A stretch of 64,000 nt of DNA. Source: Hirundichthys speculiger. Lineage: Eukaryota > Chordata > Actinopteri > Beloniformes > Exocoetidae. A program made the position numbers and the translations under genes. The notes under the pieces are model-generated. The model had not been told where the DNA came from and made no database searches. It saw nothing but the letters and a program-made list of their open reading frames with translations. The stretch spans positions 1 through 64,000 of the forward strand of contig JAGFBZ010003012.1 of assembly GCA_018398805.1 (NCBI GenBank), read 5' to 3'. This document shows, one piece after another, positions 609 to 62,475 of the stretch (position 1 is the first letter of the stretch; each line of letters opens with the position of its first letter).

Positions 609-2801
609 CAGGGGCGGCACAGGGGGGTGGCTTGGAGTTGCTATAGCAACCTCAAAATATGGCTTGGCAACCTCAAAGCAACCCCAAGAATGGAGACTAT
701 TAAAAATGAAAATCTTAATTGTGTTAAATAAAGTAAAAATGGTGACAATTTAATTTAAAATTAATTTCATGTGTTTTTGCTTTAAATTAAAATAGAAGGA
801 AGACAATTAAAAACGATGAGAGCTGGCCTGCAGGGGTCACGCGAAGTCAGCTTGGGAAATAAAAAAAAAACCGGGCCGTTAGGAAAGTGACATCAAAATG
901 GAGGCTATCTGTTGAAGCGTAAGTCTGCCAAATCCTACTGATGTGAACTTATGTGAATATTAACTGGTTAAAATGTGATGAACAGGTTATTGTTAAATGA
1001 TTTGTAGACTAGGCTGTTAATGTGCATTTCTCACTGCTGTGAAAAGCGGCATGACTATATGGTAAAATTATAATAACGAACTTCAAATTGATTTTTTTAT
1101 CTGTTTCATGGCATGCGCGCTAGTTTCAGATAGCGCTGATTAGAATGAGGAGGCCGGTAATGACATACATATCCATATTTATGCTATTTAATTGCATAAC
1201 ACTGCCGTAGTCAATCCTATGACAATGGCAGTAACATGATGGGCCAAAAACAGGGGGTTCGGGCAAGAATTTTGCAACTGAACACCAAAGCATTGTGCAT
1301 CCCATGCAGCAGCCATACGCTGAACCTGGTGGTAAACCTGGTGGTGGCTGCAAAGTCCTCGGTGCAGTCCATCACCTTCTTTGGTGTGTTGCAAAGACTT
1401 TACAACTTGTTCAGCTCTTCTGTGCAACGCTGGAGAGTTTTTAAGGAACATGTAAAGCAGCTCACTGTAGCCTTTGTCAACAACAAGATGGGAGGCTCGG
1501 ATTGACTGTGTGAAGGTGTTGCGCTATCAATTACCAGAGATCCTAGAAGCATTGTCTGCCCTCCAAACACATGCTACAGAGAAGGGGAACTCTGAGACTC
1601 TGTCCTCTGCAAAAAGCTTACATGGTGAGTTGAAGACCTGGTCTTTTCTCCTTCAGATCATCATCTGGTACAATGTTTTGTACCAGAACAATCATGTGAG
1701 CAAGCTGCTACAGATTCCAAATGTTTCCATGGAAACACTCAAAGCGGAAACAGAGGGAGTAAGAAAGTTCCTTGAAGATTTCAGGGAAAATGGGATTGCT
1801 TCCTGCCAAACTGATGCAAGAGATATTGCAGAAAATCTGGAGATGGAAATGATCCTCCCTGAGAAAAGGCAGCGCAAAAACAAAGCTCTGTCTCTATATG
1901 AAAGCACTGAGCAAACTCAGTCGACTCCAGAGGAGACTTTTAGAAGGGACCGTCTTTCTTCCTCTGGTAGACATAGCACTTAAGAGTCTGGTAGACAGGT
2001 TTTCTAGATTGAAAGATGTGTATGACCTGTATGACTTTCTGTTCTCAAAGGACAACATGCAGAAGAACAAAAATGCTGAAAAGCTTTATGAGCGACGCAA
2101 GAAACTGGAACAGACTGTAAATGACATTGATGCAGATGACTTGGTACTTGAGATCAATGCATGTCTCCACACTTTTCCAGACCATGTAGCCACCTGCCCA
2201 TTTGACATCCTTAACTACATATACAGTGAGAAGCTGCTGGATCTGTACAGTAATTTAAGCATTGCCTTCCGGCTTCTCCTGACTCTCCCAGTGTCAGTGG
2301 CCTCAGGTGAGAGAAGCTGATACAAACCTACATGAGGTCCACCATGTCTCAAGAGAGGCTCACAGGACTGGCACTGGTGTCAATTGAGCGTGATGTTCGC
2401 CGGGATATGGAGGACATTGTGGTTTCATTTGCCAAAGCAAAGGCTCGTAGACATAATTTTTAATTATTTTCTATGCTGTTGATGTGCCTCTTTATATGTG
2501 CCTCTTTGTCTGGAGGACGTTCTATAGCACTCTGACCTCTGTTTTTGGTAAGTTGTATTCTTTAGTATTTTATATTTATTTATATTATTTATTTTTACGT
2601 GTTTTTTTGTTTGGTATATAGTAGTTTTATAGTAGTTTTTGTTCCAATGCTATTTGCACTTTTTTATGTTTGTTATGGGATGGTGGTGGTTTTTTTTTAT
2701 AAAATATATTTTTTCTTTTCACATTTAATAAAGTTTGTGTGAACTTGAAAAATGTGTGTGTGTGTATGCCTAGGGCCCCCAAATTTCTTGAAACGGCCCT
2801 G
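609..2801 (+). mobile_element. hAT element with ZMYM1/TTF-type transposase, decayed
   Basis: The left end starts CAGGGGCGG and the right end finishes CGGCCCTG, so the termini are short imperfect inverted repeats of hAT type. Between them lies a broken transposase (1222-2463). I see no convincing 8-bp TSD; the flanks TTCATCCT and CATATACA differ. Boundaries are therefore inferred from the termini only. Confidence 0.6.
1222..2463 (+). pseudogene. hAT transposase, ZMYM1/TTF-type, frameshifted
   Basis: Three overlapping frames carry consecutive pieces of one protein. The RNase H-like core begins near 1222, with a C-S-S-H-T-L-N-L block at about 1302-1325. The middle follows in another frame from 1480 to about 1950. 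A third frame runs to 2320 and holds the start of the C-terminal dimerisation region (SVASGERS). A fourth frame (about 2325-2463) gives the final block and stops with TAA at 2461. The BED/TTF zinc finger and N-terminus are missing. At least three frameshifts make it non-functional. Alternative: a relative of the host ZMYM genes, but the hAT termini argue for a transposon. Confidence 0.75.
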
Positions 2802-3169: not shown

Positions 3170-3233
3170 GTGAATCGTAGCGTGAGCAAAAAATCGTACC
3201 GAATCGTGAGTTGAGTGAATCGTTACATCCCTA
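3170..3233 (+). repeat. hAT 3'-terminal remnant
   Basis: The sequence ends in GAATCGTTACATCCCTA and is preceded by a GAATCGTGAGTTGAGTG stretch. This is the look of the right end of hAT elements whose TIR begins TAGGGATGTAACGATTC. No left end was found upstream, so it is a truncated copy. Confidence 0.45.
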
Positions 3234-3404
3234 GTTATTACTCCTCTACTCTAACATATTTGCAGAGGCAGTTCTGTTATTCCTCTGGATGCATCATCTT
3301 AAAAAAAGTGAACCATTACATTCAGTTTTTTTTTTTTTTTTTTTACAATATTTTGGGTAGTTCCTTCATCAACATTCAGAGAAAACCTACATCCTGATCA
3401 GACA

Positions 3405-34396: not shown

Positions 34397-35345
34397 TTAG
34401 TGTGGTGATTTATCCACAGGGTTGTAAGTTTTGTTCTTATTGTTTTTCAATAGAAGGGGAGCCACTGAGTCCAGCGTTGTCCTTAGTTTAGTATTAAAAT
34501 TGTCGACAATAAAATCACAAGGTGCAGGTAAAATTTCTGCAGGAGTGCTCTGTAAAATCTCAATAAAATTTGCAGCCACTTCATAAGTTAGGTAGCGATT
34601 CCTCACTATTCTCACCGGGGCCTCCTGGTGGCTAAAACTGGTAATGTTAAAATACACATGGTAGTGGTCAGACACAGCCAGGTCAACAACAGAGAAACAC
34701 CTGTAGACAGACCATAAGTTATGTCCAGGTCCAGGTCCAGGTCCAGGTCCAGGTCCAGGTCCAGGTCCAGATCCAGGGTGTGTCCTCTGTTGTGAGTCGG
34801 CTGTGTGACGTGCTGCTTAAAATCCATGCAGGTTAAAAGGTTTGAAAATTCTCTGGATAGAGGATTGGAATTAATATCAACATGTAAATTAAAATCACCA
34901 GTTATTAAAATTCTGTTGTAAGTGGAGTGTATAATTGACAATAATTCAGAGAATTCACTCATAAAAGAGTTGGAATGATGGGGTGGTCTATAAACTGTAA
35001 TACACAGAATTGGGGGACTGCTAAAAACAAAGGAATGATATTCAAATGATGAATAACTTTCAAAAGAATGATCCTTTGGGTTCAGTGATCTCAGGATGAA
35101 TGATGCAGTTACCCTCCTCTTTTGCCTCCCCTAGTCGAAAATAAAAAAGTAAAATTAGGTGGGCAGGCCTCGGTGAGAACAACTGGTGCATCAGTGCCAA
35201 GCCATGTCTCAGTTAATAATAAAATGTCAAGCTTACTGTCTAAAATCAGGTCGTTTATGATGAAAGTTTTGTTAAAGAGAGAGTGCACGTTCAGATTAAT
35301 GTCCGTGCTGAACGTGCGCTCATTGCAGCCTCCACGGGTCCACGG
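34397..35345 (-). pseudogene. LINE ORF2: APE-type endonuclease
   Basis: Read on the minus strand from about 35345 (NVHSLFNKTFIINDLILDSK, then LLLTETWLG with the catalytic Glu). Next comes ILITGDFNLHVD with the catalytic Asp and Asn (about 34910-34875), then THNRGHTLDLD and an SDHYHVYF block with the final Asp/His. The frame is shifted between 35100 and 34962 and again near 34690. A hexanucleotide expansion (34723-34777) inserts a run of alternating Leu-Asp in the domain. Confidence 0.8.
34723..34777. repeat. (CCAGGT)n hexanucleotide array inside LINE endonuclease
   Basis: About nine tandem GTCCAG units. On the minus strand they encode alternating Leu and Asp, extending a pre-existing LDL in the endonuclease. 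The expansion keeps the frame. Confidence 0.95.
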
Positions 35346-35939
35346 GACCCGCAGACGCAGGCTTACATGAATGGTTAAAACAAGAGGAAATGATTAAAGG
35401 GATGAGATTGGAAACTACTGATTTTTTTGTTATTTTGTGAAACAGCTGGTCCTAGTCCGGTACTGATAGTGTTGTTGATGGAAGTGGAACTAAGTCAACA
35501 GAAACTAGGACCAGGGGGACATCAAGCACTTACGGACAGAGCAGATGAGTCACGTGGTAGAGTTGACTGTGGTTGATTGTGGAATAATCCGTAAGAGATG
35601 TTGTCTGAAAGCTGACGGCTACCAGGTTTATTAAGGTGGAGTCCGTCTGCATTGAAGAGATGCCCCCTGTTTCAGAAAGTGTTAAAATGATCAATGAACA
35701 CAACTCCGTGGGAGGTACAGGCTGAAGCCAGCCTGGTGTTAAGGCTCACTAGCCAGCTGAATCATCTGATTCCCCGGGTGGGGCCCCACAGGGGGGGGTG
35801 GGGCCGGAGGTGAAGATGCTGCGGTGGAGCTGTCACAGAGTTAAAAAGAAGGAGAAAATCTTGTTTCAGAAGTTCAGACTCTTGTTTTGGGATATCGTTG
35901 GTTCCAATATGTAAAATTACTTTTGTAGCCTCAGGACGA

Positions 35940-36330
35940 GCTTGAATGATATCCGGAAGTTTCTCCTAGATGTCCAAAACAGCTGCACCAGGAAAGGACA
36001 GGGTCAGACGTCCACTAACTCTCATATTTCTCACAGCTGAGTCTCCGATTAGTAAAATGGTTGGAGCGGACTGGATCAGTGCCTGAGAATTTACCAGAGG
36101 TGGTGAAGATGATGAGGAGGGACCGCCAGGACGGTGGGTAGAAGACCTCCTTGGAGCTGGTGTGAACTGTGGCACAGAGCAACGAGTCTTGCTCCAAACG
36201 GGGCGCTCGGGCGCAGAGGGAGGAGGAACTCGATACGCCAGTGAGCTGCAGGACCAGTGGGATTGCCGATGGGGCGACCGACAGGGCCTGGATCCGTCAC
36301 CCAAGGTGGGGAATTCCTTGACGCTGAGAA
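35940..36330 (-). pseudogene. LINE ORF1: SGNH/GDSL-like esterase domain
   Basis: On the minus strand, TILLIGDSAVRNMRVSGR contains the GDS nucleophile block. After an in-frame stop the chain continues into ILHIGTNDIPKQE (35925-35880), the G-x-N-D block of SGNH hydrolases. ORF1 esterase domains are known in CR1/L2 LINEs. The upstream Pro/Ser-rich linker runs to 36330, where the TIR transposon interrupts it. Confidence 0.65.
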
Positions 36331-36335
36331 GGTCG

Positions 36336-36585
36336 GTTACACCCGCAAACGTAATATTAGCCCACAAATGTAATAAACCACAAACGTAACAAAAATCTGC
36401 AGCTTTGACTGTAAAAATCCTGCAAATGTAATAAATTTCCCACAAACGTAATAACATTGGCCTACTGCAAACGTAACACTGAATTTTCTGCAAATGTAAT
36501 AACTATTACATTTGCAGGAAATTATTACATTTGTGGGACGGTGAAAATCATGACTAATAACTTCCCACAAATGTAATATGAGACT
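36336..36585 (+). repeat. left TIR of the OTU transposon
   Basis: About 250 bp, mirrored at 39529-39766. It contains roughly ten copies of (C)ACAAA(T/C)GTAATA in direct and inverted order, such as CCCACAAATGTAATAAA and TTATTACATTTGTGGG. The array could act as a transposase-binding platform; that function is inference. Confidence 0.9.
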
Positions 36586-36599
36586 GAATAATGATCTTT

Positions 36600-37990
36600 G
36601 TTGTTGTTGTTGTTTGTTTACTTATACACCTGCCAATAGTGACTGAAATGTTGACAAGCAATCTGCAGGTCGACAGAGCAGCATTCTGAGTAAGTTAGAA
36701 ATAACTAACAGAAACACACACACACACACACTGGCCATTCTTGTCAGTTCACAGAATTACTCCGTAGCAGCAAATATGTTGTTTAATTGGATTTATTTTA
36801 TTTTATTCTACCTCTTGTTAATAGGGATTTCTCTGCAGCATCTGACCCACACCACCTGGTCAGCACCTAGTCAGCACCTTGGACAGTGCTGTGCTTTCTT
36901 CTTGTTCTTACAGATGAATGTTTGAGCCCCACTGTACAGAATGATGTATGAGCTTGACACTTGAAGGCTGTTTTCACATTTATCTGCTGAAAATGCTCAT
37001 ATGATTTTAAGAGCTAAGAGCCTATGCTGATGGCTTATGAAGCCTGTTTGAACCATTTAATTAAAATATGTCTGCTTATCAAAAGCCAAAAACGTCAATA
37101 GGTTGTTCATTCTTTGAAGTAGGAAAACATTTGTCAAGGTTTAAGACTGGCCCATATACTTCTTGATAGTAACATGGACCAAGACTGTCTGAAAACTGAC
37201 AAATAAAGGCTTGCAAATAATTAATGACTGGTGAACTTAAGTTAATGTACCCTATGTGAATGCAAGGAAGTGAGAATTGCCACATATTCTTGTTCTTTAG
37301 ATTCTTGCCTATTTTGACTTATCAAGTGTTGTGGATGAAAATGAGCAATAAATCTAATTCCTGAATTTTTGGAAAAAAATTATTGCAAAGAAAAAGTTGC
37401 AACTTCAAAGTACAACAACTGCTATTAATCTTAACTAAACATTGTTTGTATAACAGATTTGTCAGTGGCTATTTCTGCACAGGCCATCTTTTCTGTCTTC
37501 ATATTCATGTTTCTGATAAATAAGATAAATCAAATTAAATAAAGTCCAAACTTTAAATTGGAAAGTAAAGTGGTGCAGAAACATAAAGCCCACTGTGTCC
37601 CTTTGAAAGGCAGGCAGACATAAACAAGAAGCGATAAAAGGAGGATTTGAGGCGGCAGGTGTAAGACACCTCATTATAGCAGAGACCTCATTAAATGTAA
37701 ATAAAAGATGTATGCGTATTGTAGGGCAACATAAAAACTTTTCTCAAAACAGAAATAAGACCAAATAACATATAATAATAAATAACATAATAACAATAAC
37801 ATTTTACTTCCAAAAAAAGTCTTTAACTTTGTAGTGCCCAAAAGCGAGACATGTCAGACATCCAAGCTCTCATCCACCTATTATTGCTGTAGAAAAGTCC
37901 TTCGATATGTTGTGCTAACCCGCTGCTGCGACCAGCTGCTCTGTATAGTTTCACAATGCTGATATCTGTGTCATGATTTTGGCTGATGTG
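36600..37990. other. internal non-coding part of the OTU transposon
   Basis: No convincing ORF is present. A short (GTT)n run lies at 36599-36620 and a (CA)n run at 36716-36731. If the element once had a transposase gene here, it is deleted or unrecognisable. Confidence 0.45.
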
Positions 37991-37997
37991 AAGTTGT

Positions 37998-39450
37998 TCA
38001 GACAATGAAGGTCTGATATAGATGCAGGAAAGGTGCCTTTGGAGATAGTGGAGATACTCTATTGAATGTGGCAACCATGGACATGTCCAAATCCAGGGTG
38101 CATCTAATAATGATCGAGATCATTTTGTTTGGAAATGTTGGGGGAGCATCTTCTGAAATGTCAAAATCATGATTAGAAAGGCCTGCATCCACTTCATCAA
38201 TGTGATCTTCATGCCCTTGATCAGAAAGTTGAGCCTCTGTGGTATCAGTCCTTTCAGCCTCTTTAGGTTTGGAGACTTCTGCATCATCAGGATTAGAGGG
38301 GACCACCTCCACCTCATGGGGACTGGAGACTTCAGGCTGGTGGGGACTGGAGACTTTGGCATCACTGAGATCAGCACATGGAGCTCCAGTGTGACAGTGC
38401 AATCTCTCACAGGGGCAGCTCTGGCTCAGGTGGTAGAATGGGTTGTCCTGTAACCGGAAAGTTGCCGGTTTGATTCCTATGCTGGCTACATGTCAAAGTA
38501 TCCCTGAGCAAGATACTGAACCCCAAATTGCTCCTGGTGAGCTTGTGGCACCTTGCATGGTAGCCTCGGCCATCAGTGCATGAATGGGTGAATGTGACAC
38601 ACACTGTAAAGTGCTTTGAGAGGTCAGTAGACTAGAAAAGCGCTATAGAAATGTGAGTCCATCCATTTACCATTTCACTTTCTCCCTGCTGGATTGATTC
38701 AATGTAGTCGCTAACTGGTCCATGTAGACTAACATAATGATCTCCCTGGCCTTCTGCAATATGACCTAGAACTACAAGGGGCAAATTCTCATGTTTGAAG
38801 GTGTGATAAGAGTTGTTGCATCTGGACCAAGTGTTGAAATAATTAGCACCTGAACATTGAACATTTCAGATGCTCTTTGAAGTGTGATATGGTCTCCGTA
38901 TGTGCCTTGCTGACCCATGCTATGTAGGTAAGTATCCTAGTCACCCTCTACATAATTAGCAAGATGGATTCCTTGTGTTGTCTGAGGATTTGAATGCAAA
39001 TCCTTGACAATTTCTTGCCTAAGGAACGTAGCTGACCGAAATATCCCAAAGTGTATTAACTGGTCAGCAAGTGCTGCAAACTGGCAATTACCATCAGGCT
39101 GTGGATCCAGTTGTATGATGAAACTGGATGACCTAAATGACTCTAACTGGTCCTCACGTCTATAAGGGATCAAGTACTTTCTTTGGTTTGACCTTTGTCA
39201 CGTCCGTTCTTCATCTCTGGTGACACTGCAGATATCTTTCACCGAGAACCACTTGAGTGTAAAATCTGTTTTCCCAGGAGGTGAGAACTTAACCTTGTAC
39301 CTTAAAAGTCTCAGGTTCCTCTTCACAATGACTCCATTCAGAATAGCATGTTTCTTTGTCAGTCTGTGGGTCTTGCACCTAATTCTTACCAAAACCTCAT
39401 AATTAATATGATAGATGGATGTAGGATTTCCAGCACATGCTTTGTGAACC
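37998..39450 (-). pseudogene. transposon-borne OTU-like cysteine protease, broken
   Basis: The frame opens upstream of 39392 with a basic region (VRIRCKTHRLTKKHAI, VKFSPPGKTDFTLKWFSVKD) that stops near 39200. It resumes at 39173-38937 with LDPQPDGNCQFAALADQL, the D-G-N-C catalytic box of OTU deubiquitinases. After a stop it continues with YGDHITLQRASEMFNVQV and, in a shifted frame, GQGDHYVSL, which holds the catalytic His. A SINE (38412-38674) is inserted next. A Ser/Pro/Glu-rich tail follows at 38402-37998. Cys and His are both visible, so the fold was functional before the two stops and one frameshift. OTU proteins cleave ubiquitin chains; the role in transposition is unknown. Confidence 0.75.
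38412..38674 (+). mobile_element. tRNA-derived SINE
   Basis: The head (GGCTCAGGTGGTAGAATGGG and GGTTTGATTCC) matches Pol III A and B boxes. The body (CCCTGAGCAAGATACTGAACC) and the end (AAAGCGCTATAGAAATG, then CCATCCATTTACC) are those of a common teleost SINE. It interrupts the OTU gene of the TIR transposon, so it is the younger insertion. It is not a functional tRNA gene. Confidence 0.85.
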
Positions 39451-39528
39451 CTTTGCTCGTTACAATGCTTAGTTGCATTTTTTGCTCTTCTTCTCTTTTC
39501 TTCAAAAAAATCCCATTGCTTCTTTGAG

Positions 39529-39766
39529 TCTCGGTCTCATATTACATTTGTGGGAAGTTATTACAGTCAAGACTTTTCACCTTCCCACAAATGTAATCAT
39601 TTTCCACAAATGTATTAGTTATTACATTTGCAGAAAATTCAGTGTTACGTTTGCAGTAGGCAAATGTTATTACGTTTGTGGGAAATTTATTACATTTGCA
39701 GGATTTTTACATTCACGTTTGTGGTTTATTACATTTGTGGGCTGTTATTTTGTTTGCGGGTGTAAC
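39529..39766 (-). repeat. right TIR of the OTU transposon
   Basis: Inverted counterpart of 36336-36585. It begins TCTCGGTCTCATATTACATT and ends TTTGCGGGTGTAAC. It has a 17-30 bp internal deletion near its outer third relative to the left TIR (the CTGCAGCTTTGA segment is absent) but otherwise matches closely. Confidence 0.9.
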
Positions 39767-39774
39767 AGGGTCGA

Positions 39775-61469: not shown

Positions 61470-62310
61470 TGGTCGGGCGAGGCGGGCGATGAGGCAAGCA
61501 GCCGGGGACCAGGAGGCAACGAGGCGAAGAGTCACGGCAGCCTGCAGCTCCTTCTGCAGGGGCCCAGGAGGAGTCACGGCAGCCTGCAGCTCCTTCTGCA
61601 GGGACCCAGGAGGAGTCACTGCCGGGCCCAGGAACTGACTCGGGAGGCTGCAGCTCCTGCTTCAGCGGCTCAGGAAGAGTCATGGCCGCCTGCAGCTCCT
61701 GCTGCAGTGGCCCAGGAAGAGTTACTGCCGGCTGCAGCTCCTGCTGCAAGGGCCCAGGAACCGACTCAGGAGGCTGCAGCTCCTGCTTCAGCGGCTCAGG
61801 AAGAGTCATGGCAGCCTGCAGCGCCTGCTGCAGGGGCCCAGGCAGAGTCCCGACCGACTGCAGCTTCTGCTGCAGCGGCGACGGGAGAGTCTCGACCGGC
61901 TGCTGCAGCTCCTGCTGCAGCTCCTGCTGCAGCGGCGACGGCAGAGTCTCGGCCGGCTGCATCTCCTGCTTCAGGGGGTGCGTCGACGAGAGCGAGGTGA
62001 GGTGGGTCGACCACCTCGGAGACAGGGGAAGGCGATCGTGCGTGGACCACGTCGAGGAAGAGGAGGGTGAAGGTGCGTGGACCACCTCGAGGAAGAGGAG
62101 AGGTGAGTCGACCACCTCAGAGAAATGGGAAGGTGCATTGACCACCTCGAGAGCGAGGGTAGGTGTGTTGACCACCTCGGAGACACGGGAAGGCGAGCGT
62201 GCATTGACCATCTCGAGAGCGAGGGGAGGTGCGTCGACCACCTCAGAGACACGGGAACGTGAAGGCGCGTCGGCTGCCTCGAGAGCAAGGGAAGGTGTGT
62301 TGACCACCTC
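61470..62310 (-). other. repetitive GC-rich interior of the LTR element
   Basis: The minus strand is open over about 300 codons (no ATG start). It is composed of degenerate repeats: LPGPLQQELQ-type units at 61560-61960, then SEVVDAPxLALEMVNA-type units to 62300. The plus strand is also open over much of it, so coding is doubtful and the pattern follows from triplet-periodic repeats (GCAGCTCCTGCTGCAG). No known domain is present. Confidence 0.7.
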
Positions 62311-62314
62311 GGGG

Positions 62315-62475
62315 ACACGGGAACGTGAAGGCGCGTCGGCCGCCTCAGAGACACGGGAACGTGAAGGCGCGTCGGCCGCCTCAGAGACACGGGAACGTCA
62401 AGGCGTGTCGGCCGCCTCAGAGACACGGGAACATCAAGGCGTGTCGGCCGCCTCAGAAACACGGGAACGTGAAGA
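62315..62475. repeat. 36-bp tandem repeat array
   Basis: ACACGGGAAC recurs at 62315, 62351, 62387, 62423 and 62459, an exact 36-bp period. Units also share AAGGCG(C/T)GTCGGCCGCCTCAG. Thirty-six is a multiple of three, so both strands stay open. Confidence 0.95.

Follow-up and report, generated by a model that had tools for sequence, protein, structure and literature searches.

Within a 64,000-nucleotide window of Hirundichthys speculiger DNA (positions 1 to 64,000 of contig JAGFBZ010003012.1, assembly GCA_018398805.1), we analyzed a ~3.4-kb transposon with terminal inverted repeats (TIRs) that spans 36336-39766 and carries, on the minus strand, the broken remains of an OTU-type deubiquitinase gene. 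We conclude, with a probability of roughly 0.9, that it descends from a cut-and-paste transposon encoding an integrase-OTU transposase, and that internal deletion followed by decay has left it non-autonomous. Judged from related sequences, the OTU domain belongs to that transposase and is no odd passenger. The features of the locus are as follows.

36330..36334, no strand: left target-site duplication, AGGTC (36329-36335 in a 7-bp parse), based on the empty site in copy L058 and a permutation test
36335..36587, plus strand: left TIR, on the 3' side of the gene, with ten CAAAYGTAA words and an outermost G
36588..37806, no strand: non-coding stretch separating the C-terminal domain from the left TIR, common to A-subfamily copies L016, L015, L014, and L021 (blastn)
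37807..38130, minus strand: frameshifted remains of the C-terminal domain, with an F-box-like first half (tblastn with protein P0030; NRVSPLS at 38043-38063)
38131..38410, minus strand: acidic, repetitive linker from OTU to C-terminal domain (open reading frame [ORF] 37998-38492; tblastn)
38411..38674, no strand: insertion of 264 bp resembling a short interspersed element (SINE) in the gene for OTU and C-terminal domain, with TCAC flanks at 38407-38410 and 38675-38678
38700..39110, minus strand: OTU protease domain interrupted by one frameshift and one stop, with Cys box DGNCQF and His box GQGDHYVSL (PF02338, tblastn)
39174..39530, minus strand: C-terminal SH3-like part of the integrase, with one stop, corresponding at 73% to residues 364-486 of the open frame in copy L009 (L009 model)
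39531..39767, minus strand: right TIR, on the 5' side of the gene, directly joined to the remaining integrase C-terminus
39768..39772, no strand: right target-site duplication, GGGTC

The window copy and its TIRs

The TIRs are about 240-250 bp long, with outer ends GTTACACCCGC from 36336 and GCGGGTGTAAC up to 39766. Their arms are complementary over 142 nt (94%), 52 nt (92%), and 33 nt (97%) between 36336-36587 and 39531-39766. Together with an empty site in another copy of the host sequence (see below), this bears out an earlier, sequence-only reading of the locus, which proposed a ~3.4-kb TIR transposon with TIRs of ~250 bp. That reading also counted about ten words per TIR in both orientations, and we found exactly ten copies of the shorter core word CAAAYGTAA in each, again in both orientations (≤1 mismatch). 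Matches to CACAAATGTAATA (≤2 mismatches) numbered 16 in the 64-kb window, all of them inside the two TIRs, whereas 100 shuffled controls averaged 3.05 matches and never exceeded 8. Word positions correspond between the TIRs of subfamilies A and B, and the two majority bases agree in 83 of 90 columns inside the words vs. 131 of 164 outside (Fisher p=0.011). This pattern fits repeated binding sites for the transposase. An Rfam search of the element gave one sub-threshold match to mir-548 at 36504-36578, within the left TIR's inner palindrome; at 29.3 bits vs. a gathering score of 90, we took it as an artefact of inverted words.

Much of a gene is still legible between the TIRs. The right TIR abuts the stretch matching residues 364-486 of the L009 frame, and residues 1-363 in that numbering, comprising the N-terminus and the D-D-E core, are missing. 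The OTU fragment, translated with X at two stops, matched Pfam OTU (PF02338) with E=6.5e-9 and 36.8 bits vs. a cut-off of 23.3. Its Cys box (39078-39095) and His box (38725-38751) lie in different frames. The broken minus-strand OTU protein, in which the DGNC and GQGDHYVSL motifs had first been noticed, passed the Pfam search suggested for it. With protein P0030 as a query, tblastn on the window gene returned identities of 82% over 250 amino acids (aa), 90% over 41 aa, and 69% over 64 aa. Stops, frameshifts, and the 264-bp insertion break the OTU, linker, and C-terminal domain. This SINE-like insertion, absent from the sequence-only reading, was recognized by reading the sequence against P0030 and had no match in Rfam.

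The window copy no longer has the integrase core, although the remainder persists, which is why no transposase had been recognized there. Sister copies do encode an integrase, and its C-terminus survives in the window. The window copy is a deletion derivative that is dead as a gene, and it could have moved only with an enzyme supplied by a different copy.

Insertion site and target duplication

The element sits in a non-LTR (long terminal repeat) retrotransposon, a long interspersed element (LINE) on the minus strand that occupies window positions 34612-36335 and continues from 39768 onwards. The endonuclease frame of this LINE lies at 34612-35130 (Pfam PF14529, E=1.8e-6). Nearer to the element lies a frame containing ILLIGDS and ILHIGTNDI, which had no Pfam match and which we read, from these motifs, as a probable esterase-like ORF1. 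The left flank produced 27 match rows in the same genome, and two LINE copies, L058 and L059, lack the element and preserve empty sites (GAGGGTCGAAC in L058, GAGGGTCAAAC in L059). L058 matches the window at 90% identity on either side of the site, and its empty site confirms both the insertion of the element and the target duplication.

The length of this duplication depends on where the element is taken to end. With terminal T/A bases, the window shows a 5-bp duplication that matches at four of five positions (AGGTC vs. GGGTC). The alternative is a 7-bp duplication, AAGGTCG/AGGGTCG, around ends GTTAC..GTAAC. We prefer 5 bp and ends TGTTAC..GTAACA because, of 19 ends in the genome (duplicate copy L018 left out), 18 have T as the base outside GTTAC, the exception being the left end of the window copy (G), although 7 bp is compatible with the data. 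The bounds 36329..39773 originally given for the locus thus describe the element plus the 7-bp parse, whereas we prefer 36336-39766 with a 5-bp duplication.

We compared duplication lengths by permutation in seven both-ended copies (28 uncorrected tests; L018 on C312 was dropped as a duplicate of L017 on C2338). With T/A ends, signals peaked at 5 and 6 bp (p=0.0018 and 0.0081, respectively). Without T/A, and including the same bases, the peaks lay at 7 and 8 bp (p=0.0016 and 0.0046, respectively), and an asymmetric 6-bp parse also reached p=0.0016. In two other copies, the duplications with T/A ends were perfect: 6/6 at 6 bp in C2862 and 5/5 at 5 bp in C1932. Among the remainder of the set, C2530 had an imperfect duplication only, and C202, C606, and C2338 had no convincing one.

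Related copies in the same genome

Fuller copies encode a transposase of the retroviral-integrase type (rve, D-D34-E), with an SH3-like domain, an OTU protease, and lastly a conserved C-terminal domain behind it. The integrase core is present in sister copies L009, L010, and L012, each with both TIRs, and the OTU sits within or directly after the integrase frame. Full-length copies without the OTU gene would have counted against the sequence-only reading, but of the copies that have both TIRs, the largest three (C2862, C2530, and C202) carry integrase and OTU alike. The closest match to the window OTU segment was C1932 (93% over 821 nt), which belongs to the same subfamily as the window element and contains most of the OTU segment plus fragments of the integrase interrupted by stops. 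Integrase and OTU are both lacking in the short copies C606 (970 bp) and C2338/C312 (449 bp), as expected of deletion derivatives. A single matching TIR or TIR pieces, with no OTU match there, were found at C1909, C1306, C879, C1580, C369, and one C202 end, and these do not bear on whether full-length copies lack OTU. As lower bounds on copy number, TIR matches occurred on at least 13 contigs and OTU-segment matches at at least 5 places.

Two further observations concern the same genome. Distant relics (40-42%) of the integrase N-terminal region lie at C666:99554-99895 and C706:60426-60746 and perhaps represent a third subfamily. In the 6.8-kb B copy L010, a Myb/SANT-like DNA-binding frame at 2563-2883 (PF13873, E=9.5e-15) could belong to the element or have been inserted into it.

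A family of integrase-OTU proteins in animals

The L009 integrase frame matched 115 database proteins (E≤0.001). By hand count of precomputed Pfam domains, 43 of these contain rve and OTU in one protein, and many of the others are short. Most homologues come without a named source; the named ones inspected are animals, including Epinephelus moara (grouper), Patiria (starfish), Ptychodera (acorn worm), corals, a rotifer, and Littorina (periwinkle). Several bear the automatic name “KRAB-A domain-containing protein 2-like,” and through these database names the integrase part of the host gene KRBA2 may trace back to this family.

Catalytic residues were well conserved, in an alignment whose proteins were picked by similarity, a choice that favors conservation. 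The three integrase core residues were kept in 36, 34, and 36 of 36 proteins, the OTU catalytic Cys in 34 of 35 (one gap), and the His in all 35. This joint retention of both enzymes’ catalytic residues argues that deubiquitination serves transposition.

Classification and alternative explanations

The OTU had been considered as possible cargo of a Mutator-like or KDZ/Zisupton element. A host gene captured by one of these, or by another transposon with an unrelated transposase, would be in keeping with the window alone, which shows only an OTU-containing reading, and with OTU or Ulp1 domains known from other transposon groups (PMC2836005). However, such a capture is very improbable given that the sister copies have OTU in or directly behind the integrase frame, that the two domains share one protein in more than a third of the homologues (the 43 of 115 counted above), and that the integrase C-terminus is still joined to OTU in the window. 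The element is neither Mutator nor KDZ, as the copies sharing its TIRs have what is by sequence an integrase for a transposase. Helitrons and Helentrons also encode an OTU (PMC6431247, PMC9741609), but they do so alongside rolling-circle Rep/helicase proteins without an integrase.

The combination of TIRs and OTU proved less unusual than the sequence-only reading held, as Ginger1 has already been described with an integrase-type transposase that has an OTU or Ulp1 domain at its C-terminus (Bao, Kapitonov, and Jurka 2010, PMC2836005). Our family is a variant of this integrase-OTU type. It shares with Ginger1, as described there, the C-terminal OTU, TGTNR ends, and lengths within the published ranges (elements of 2.6-7 kb, TIRs of 40-270 bp). 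However, Ginger1 is defined by an H2C2 zinc finger, GPY/F and YPYY motifs, and 4-bp CCGG/CCGT duplications (PMC2836005), and neither the zinc finger nor this duplication was found in our family. The Integrase_H2C2 domain was detected in none of seven family members scanned vs. all four Gypsy integrases scanned from the same genome, no HHCC column set appeared in the 36 aligned proteins, and P0142, a distant sequence, was alone among the 115 homologues in listing PF17921 (Integrase_H2C2). CCGG/CCGT was absent at the window insertion site, and a 4-bp duplication gave no signal in the seven copies (p 0.23 to 0.84 over four parses). No GPY/F motif was read by eye in the consensus, and a strand-rich C-terminal part was modelled. 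With two defining features not found, we rejected membership in Ginger1 itself and regard a true Ginger1 as quite unlikely. Ginger2/TDD elements likewise resemble the family in their TGTNR ends, integrase-type core, and TIR lengths, but they differ in having an H2C2 zinc finger and 4-bp duplications (5-bp in TDD-4/5), and no OTU is mentioned for them in the parts of PMC2836005 consulted.

GingerRoot elements occur in fish, and an OTU-bearing branch of the IS3EU/GingerRoot superfamily with TG..CA ends is the placement towards which we lean. Members of this superfamily have no HHCC upstream of the core and make 6-bp duplications, and GingerRoot ends are mostly TA..TA but occasionally TG..CA (Kojima and Bao 2023, PMC10045372). 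Compared by published description, the absence of a zinc finger, the TG..CA ends, and the 5-6 bp duplications of our family fit GingerRoot better than Ginger1 or IS3EU proper. Fungal IS3EU elements are described with TAYGG..CCRTA ends and 6-bp duplications (PMC12730594). Several points count against this placement. IS3EU proper is stated always to end in TA..TA, the term OTU has 0 occurrences in the paper that says so (PMC10045372), and a duplication of 5 bp suits C1932 and the window copy better than one of 6 bp. Our searches, confined to open-licence PMC papers and not extending to Repbase, listed no description of a transposon with integrase and OTU other than Ginger1.

An origin of the integrase-OTU protein as a remnant of a Gypsy retrotransposon or virus also has some points in its favor. 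The core is integrase-like, and protein P0128 lists both PF00665 (rve) and PF00078 (reverse transcriptase), although it is perhaps a chimera of adjacent elements. An affinity to IS481/IS3, considered from NCBIfam scores, was dropped after a control in which four Gypsy integrases from this genome scored much the same; the IS481 profile does not separate them from the family, which leaves room for a Gypsy origin. Still, the elements have TIRs rather than LTRs, the H2C2 domain is missing, and no reverse-transcriptase frame was seen by eye in the ORF lists of three both-ended copies, which is short of a full profile search. In a tree of integrase cores using 63 of 107 selected rows, a 100/100 branch set the family apart from seven integrases of Gypsy elements in this genome, with warnings about long branches (P0141 and P0139) and their meeting (P0131 with the Gypsy rows). 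We consider such an origin scarcely credible.

The reading as a deletion derivative of an integrase-OTU transposon has evidence to answer as well. No unbroken frame running from integrase through OTU to the C-terminal domain was found among the copies of this genome, and the best copy, C2862, consists of frames of 486 and 294 aa split by a stop. The copies with integrase and full OTU belong to a sister subfamily that is 77-84% identical to the window element in matched interior parts, and stops also interrupt C1932, the copy from the window element's own subfamily. The target duplication is convincing in three of seven copies (C2862, C1932, and the window), and 5, 6, 7, or 8 bp are possible. 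Finally, the p-value of 0.011 for word conservation is modest, and the words are only putative binding sites.

Proposed route of transposition and proposed role of OTU

Under our preferred reading of a deleted integrase-OTU element, the parent transposase comprised, in order, an N-terminal domain without a zinc finger, the D-D34-E core, the SH3-like domain, OTU, an acidic linker, and the C-terminal domain of ~110 aa. It would bind the reiterated words in both TIRs and pair the ends, then free the TG..CA termini and join them 5-6 bp apart in target DNA. A deletion fused the 5' TIR to sequence just past the catalytic core, with the integrase lost and OTU left as a relic, and we infer that copies such as the one in the window were mobilized in trans. 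Most likely, OTU would deubiquitinate the transposase, or the complex it forms, and thereby extend its life. A role for Ulp1/OTU domains in transposition was proposed in 2010 (PMC2836005), and the catalytic activity of transposon OTU domains has so far seen no tests according to PMC9741609. A defined integrase-OTU protein together with its TIRs would make the 2010 proposal testable. The apparent OTU “cargo” thereby resolves into what is left of a fused transposase and protease, a type of protein that several animal groups possess and that does not fit the definition of Ginger1. The window copy itself is an ordinary deletion derivative, and the interest lies in the spread of the family and in its leader.

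Leader and C-terminal domain

The most surprising point of the family is a predicted signal-peptide-like leader, which we detected in 36 of 50 proteins reaching the N-terminus (49 database proteins plus L009, where it lies at 3220-3290). We scored an 11-residue stretch with mean Kyte-Doolittle hydropathy ≥2.0 within the first 45 residues, and control windows placed internally satisfied the same rule in 79 of 10,000 cases. When 35 of the 36 were inspected by simple rules of our own (P0042, with its hydrophobic stretch behind a longer start, was omitted), a plausible -3/-1 cleavage site was present in 30, and in 28 the hydrophobic stretch was preceded by a basic residue. These rows are not all independent, as P0039, P0041, P0043, and P0097 are near-identical, as are P0059-P0061. 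Some of the 14 proteins without a leader start late or have upstream extensions, and others, such as P0074, may truly lack one. The region has been lost from the window copy.

If functional, the leader would pose a new question, namely in which compartment a DNA transposase is synthesized and by what route it gets to the nucleus. One speculative answer, which we find doubtful, is that the transposase is a secretory-pathway protein that either enters the endoplasmic reticulum and is retrotranslocated to the cytosol and nucleus, its own OTU removing ubiquitin that would otherwise direct it to the proteasome, or leaves the cell. Either route, return or export, would be a new way to run a DNA transposon. 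We found no report of a transposase signal peptide among the listed open-licence PMC papers, where a single search was aimed at this topic.

At the other end of the protein, a conserved domain of ~110 aa was present in 34 of 142 proteins (for example, L012 at 1618-1970, minus strand). Modelled within the protein, this domain had block values of the predicted local distance difference test (pLDDT) mostly of 87-96. Pfam gave weak matches to F-box-like in 3 of 17 members (best E=0.017) and to F-box in 3 of 17 (best 0.099), and a PDB profile search of the domain found no F-box. F-box chains were not among the best 50 Foldseek or best 50 VIA rows, both of which were filled by OTU chains and are uninformative on this domain. 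The start of the domain is thus weakly F-box-like.

Elsewhere in the window, long G+C-rich tandem arrays occupy 61529-62474, with periods of 30-42, 66, 106, and 126 bp.

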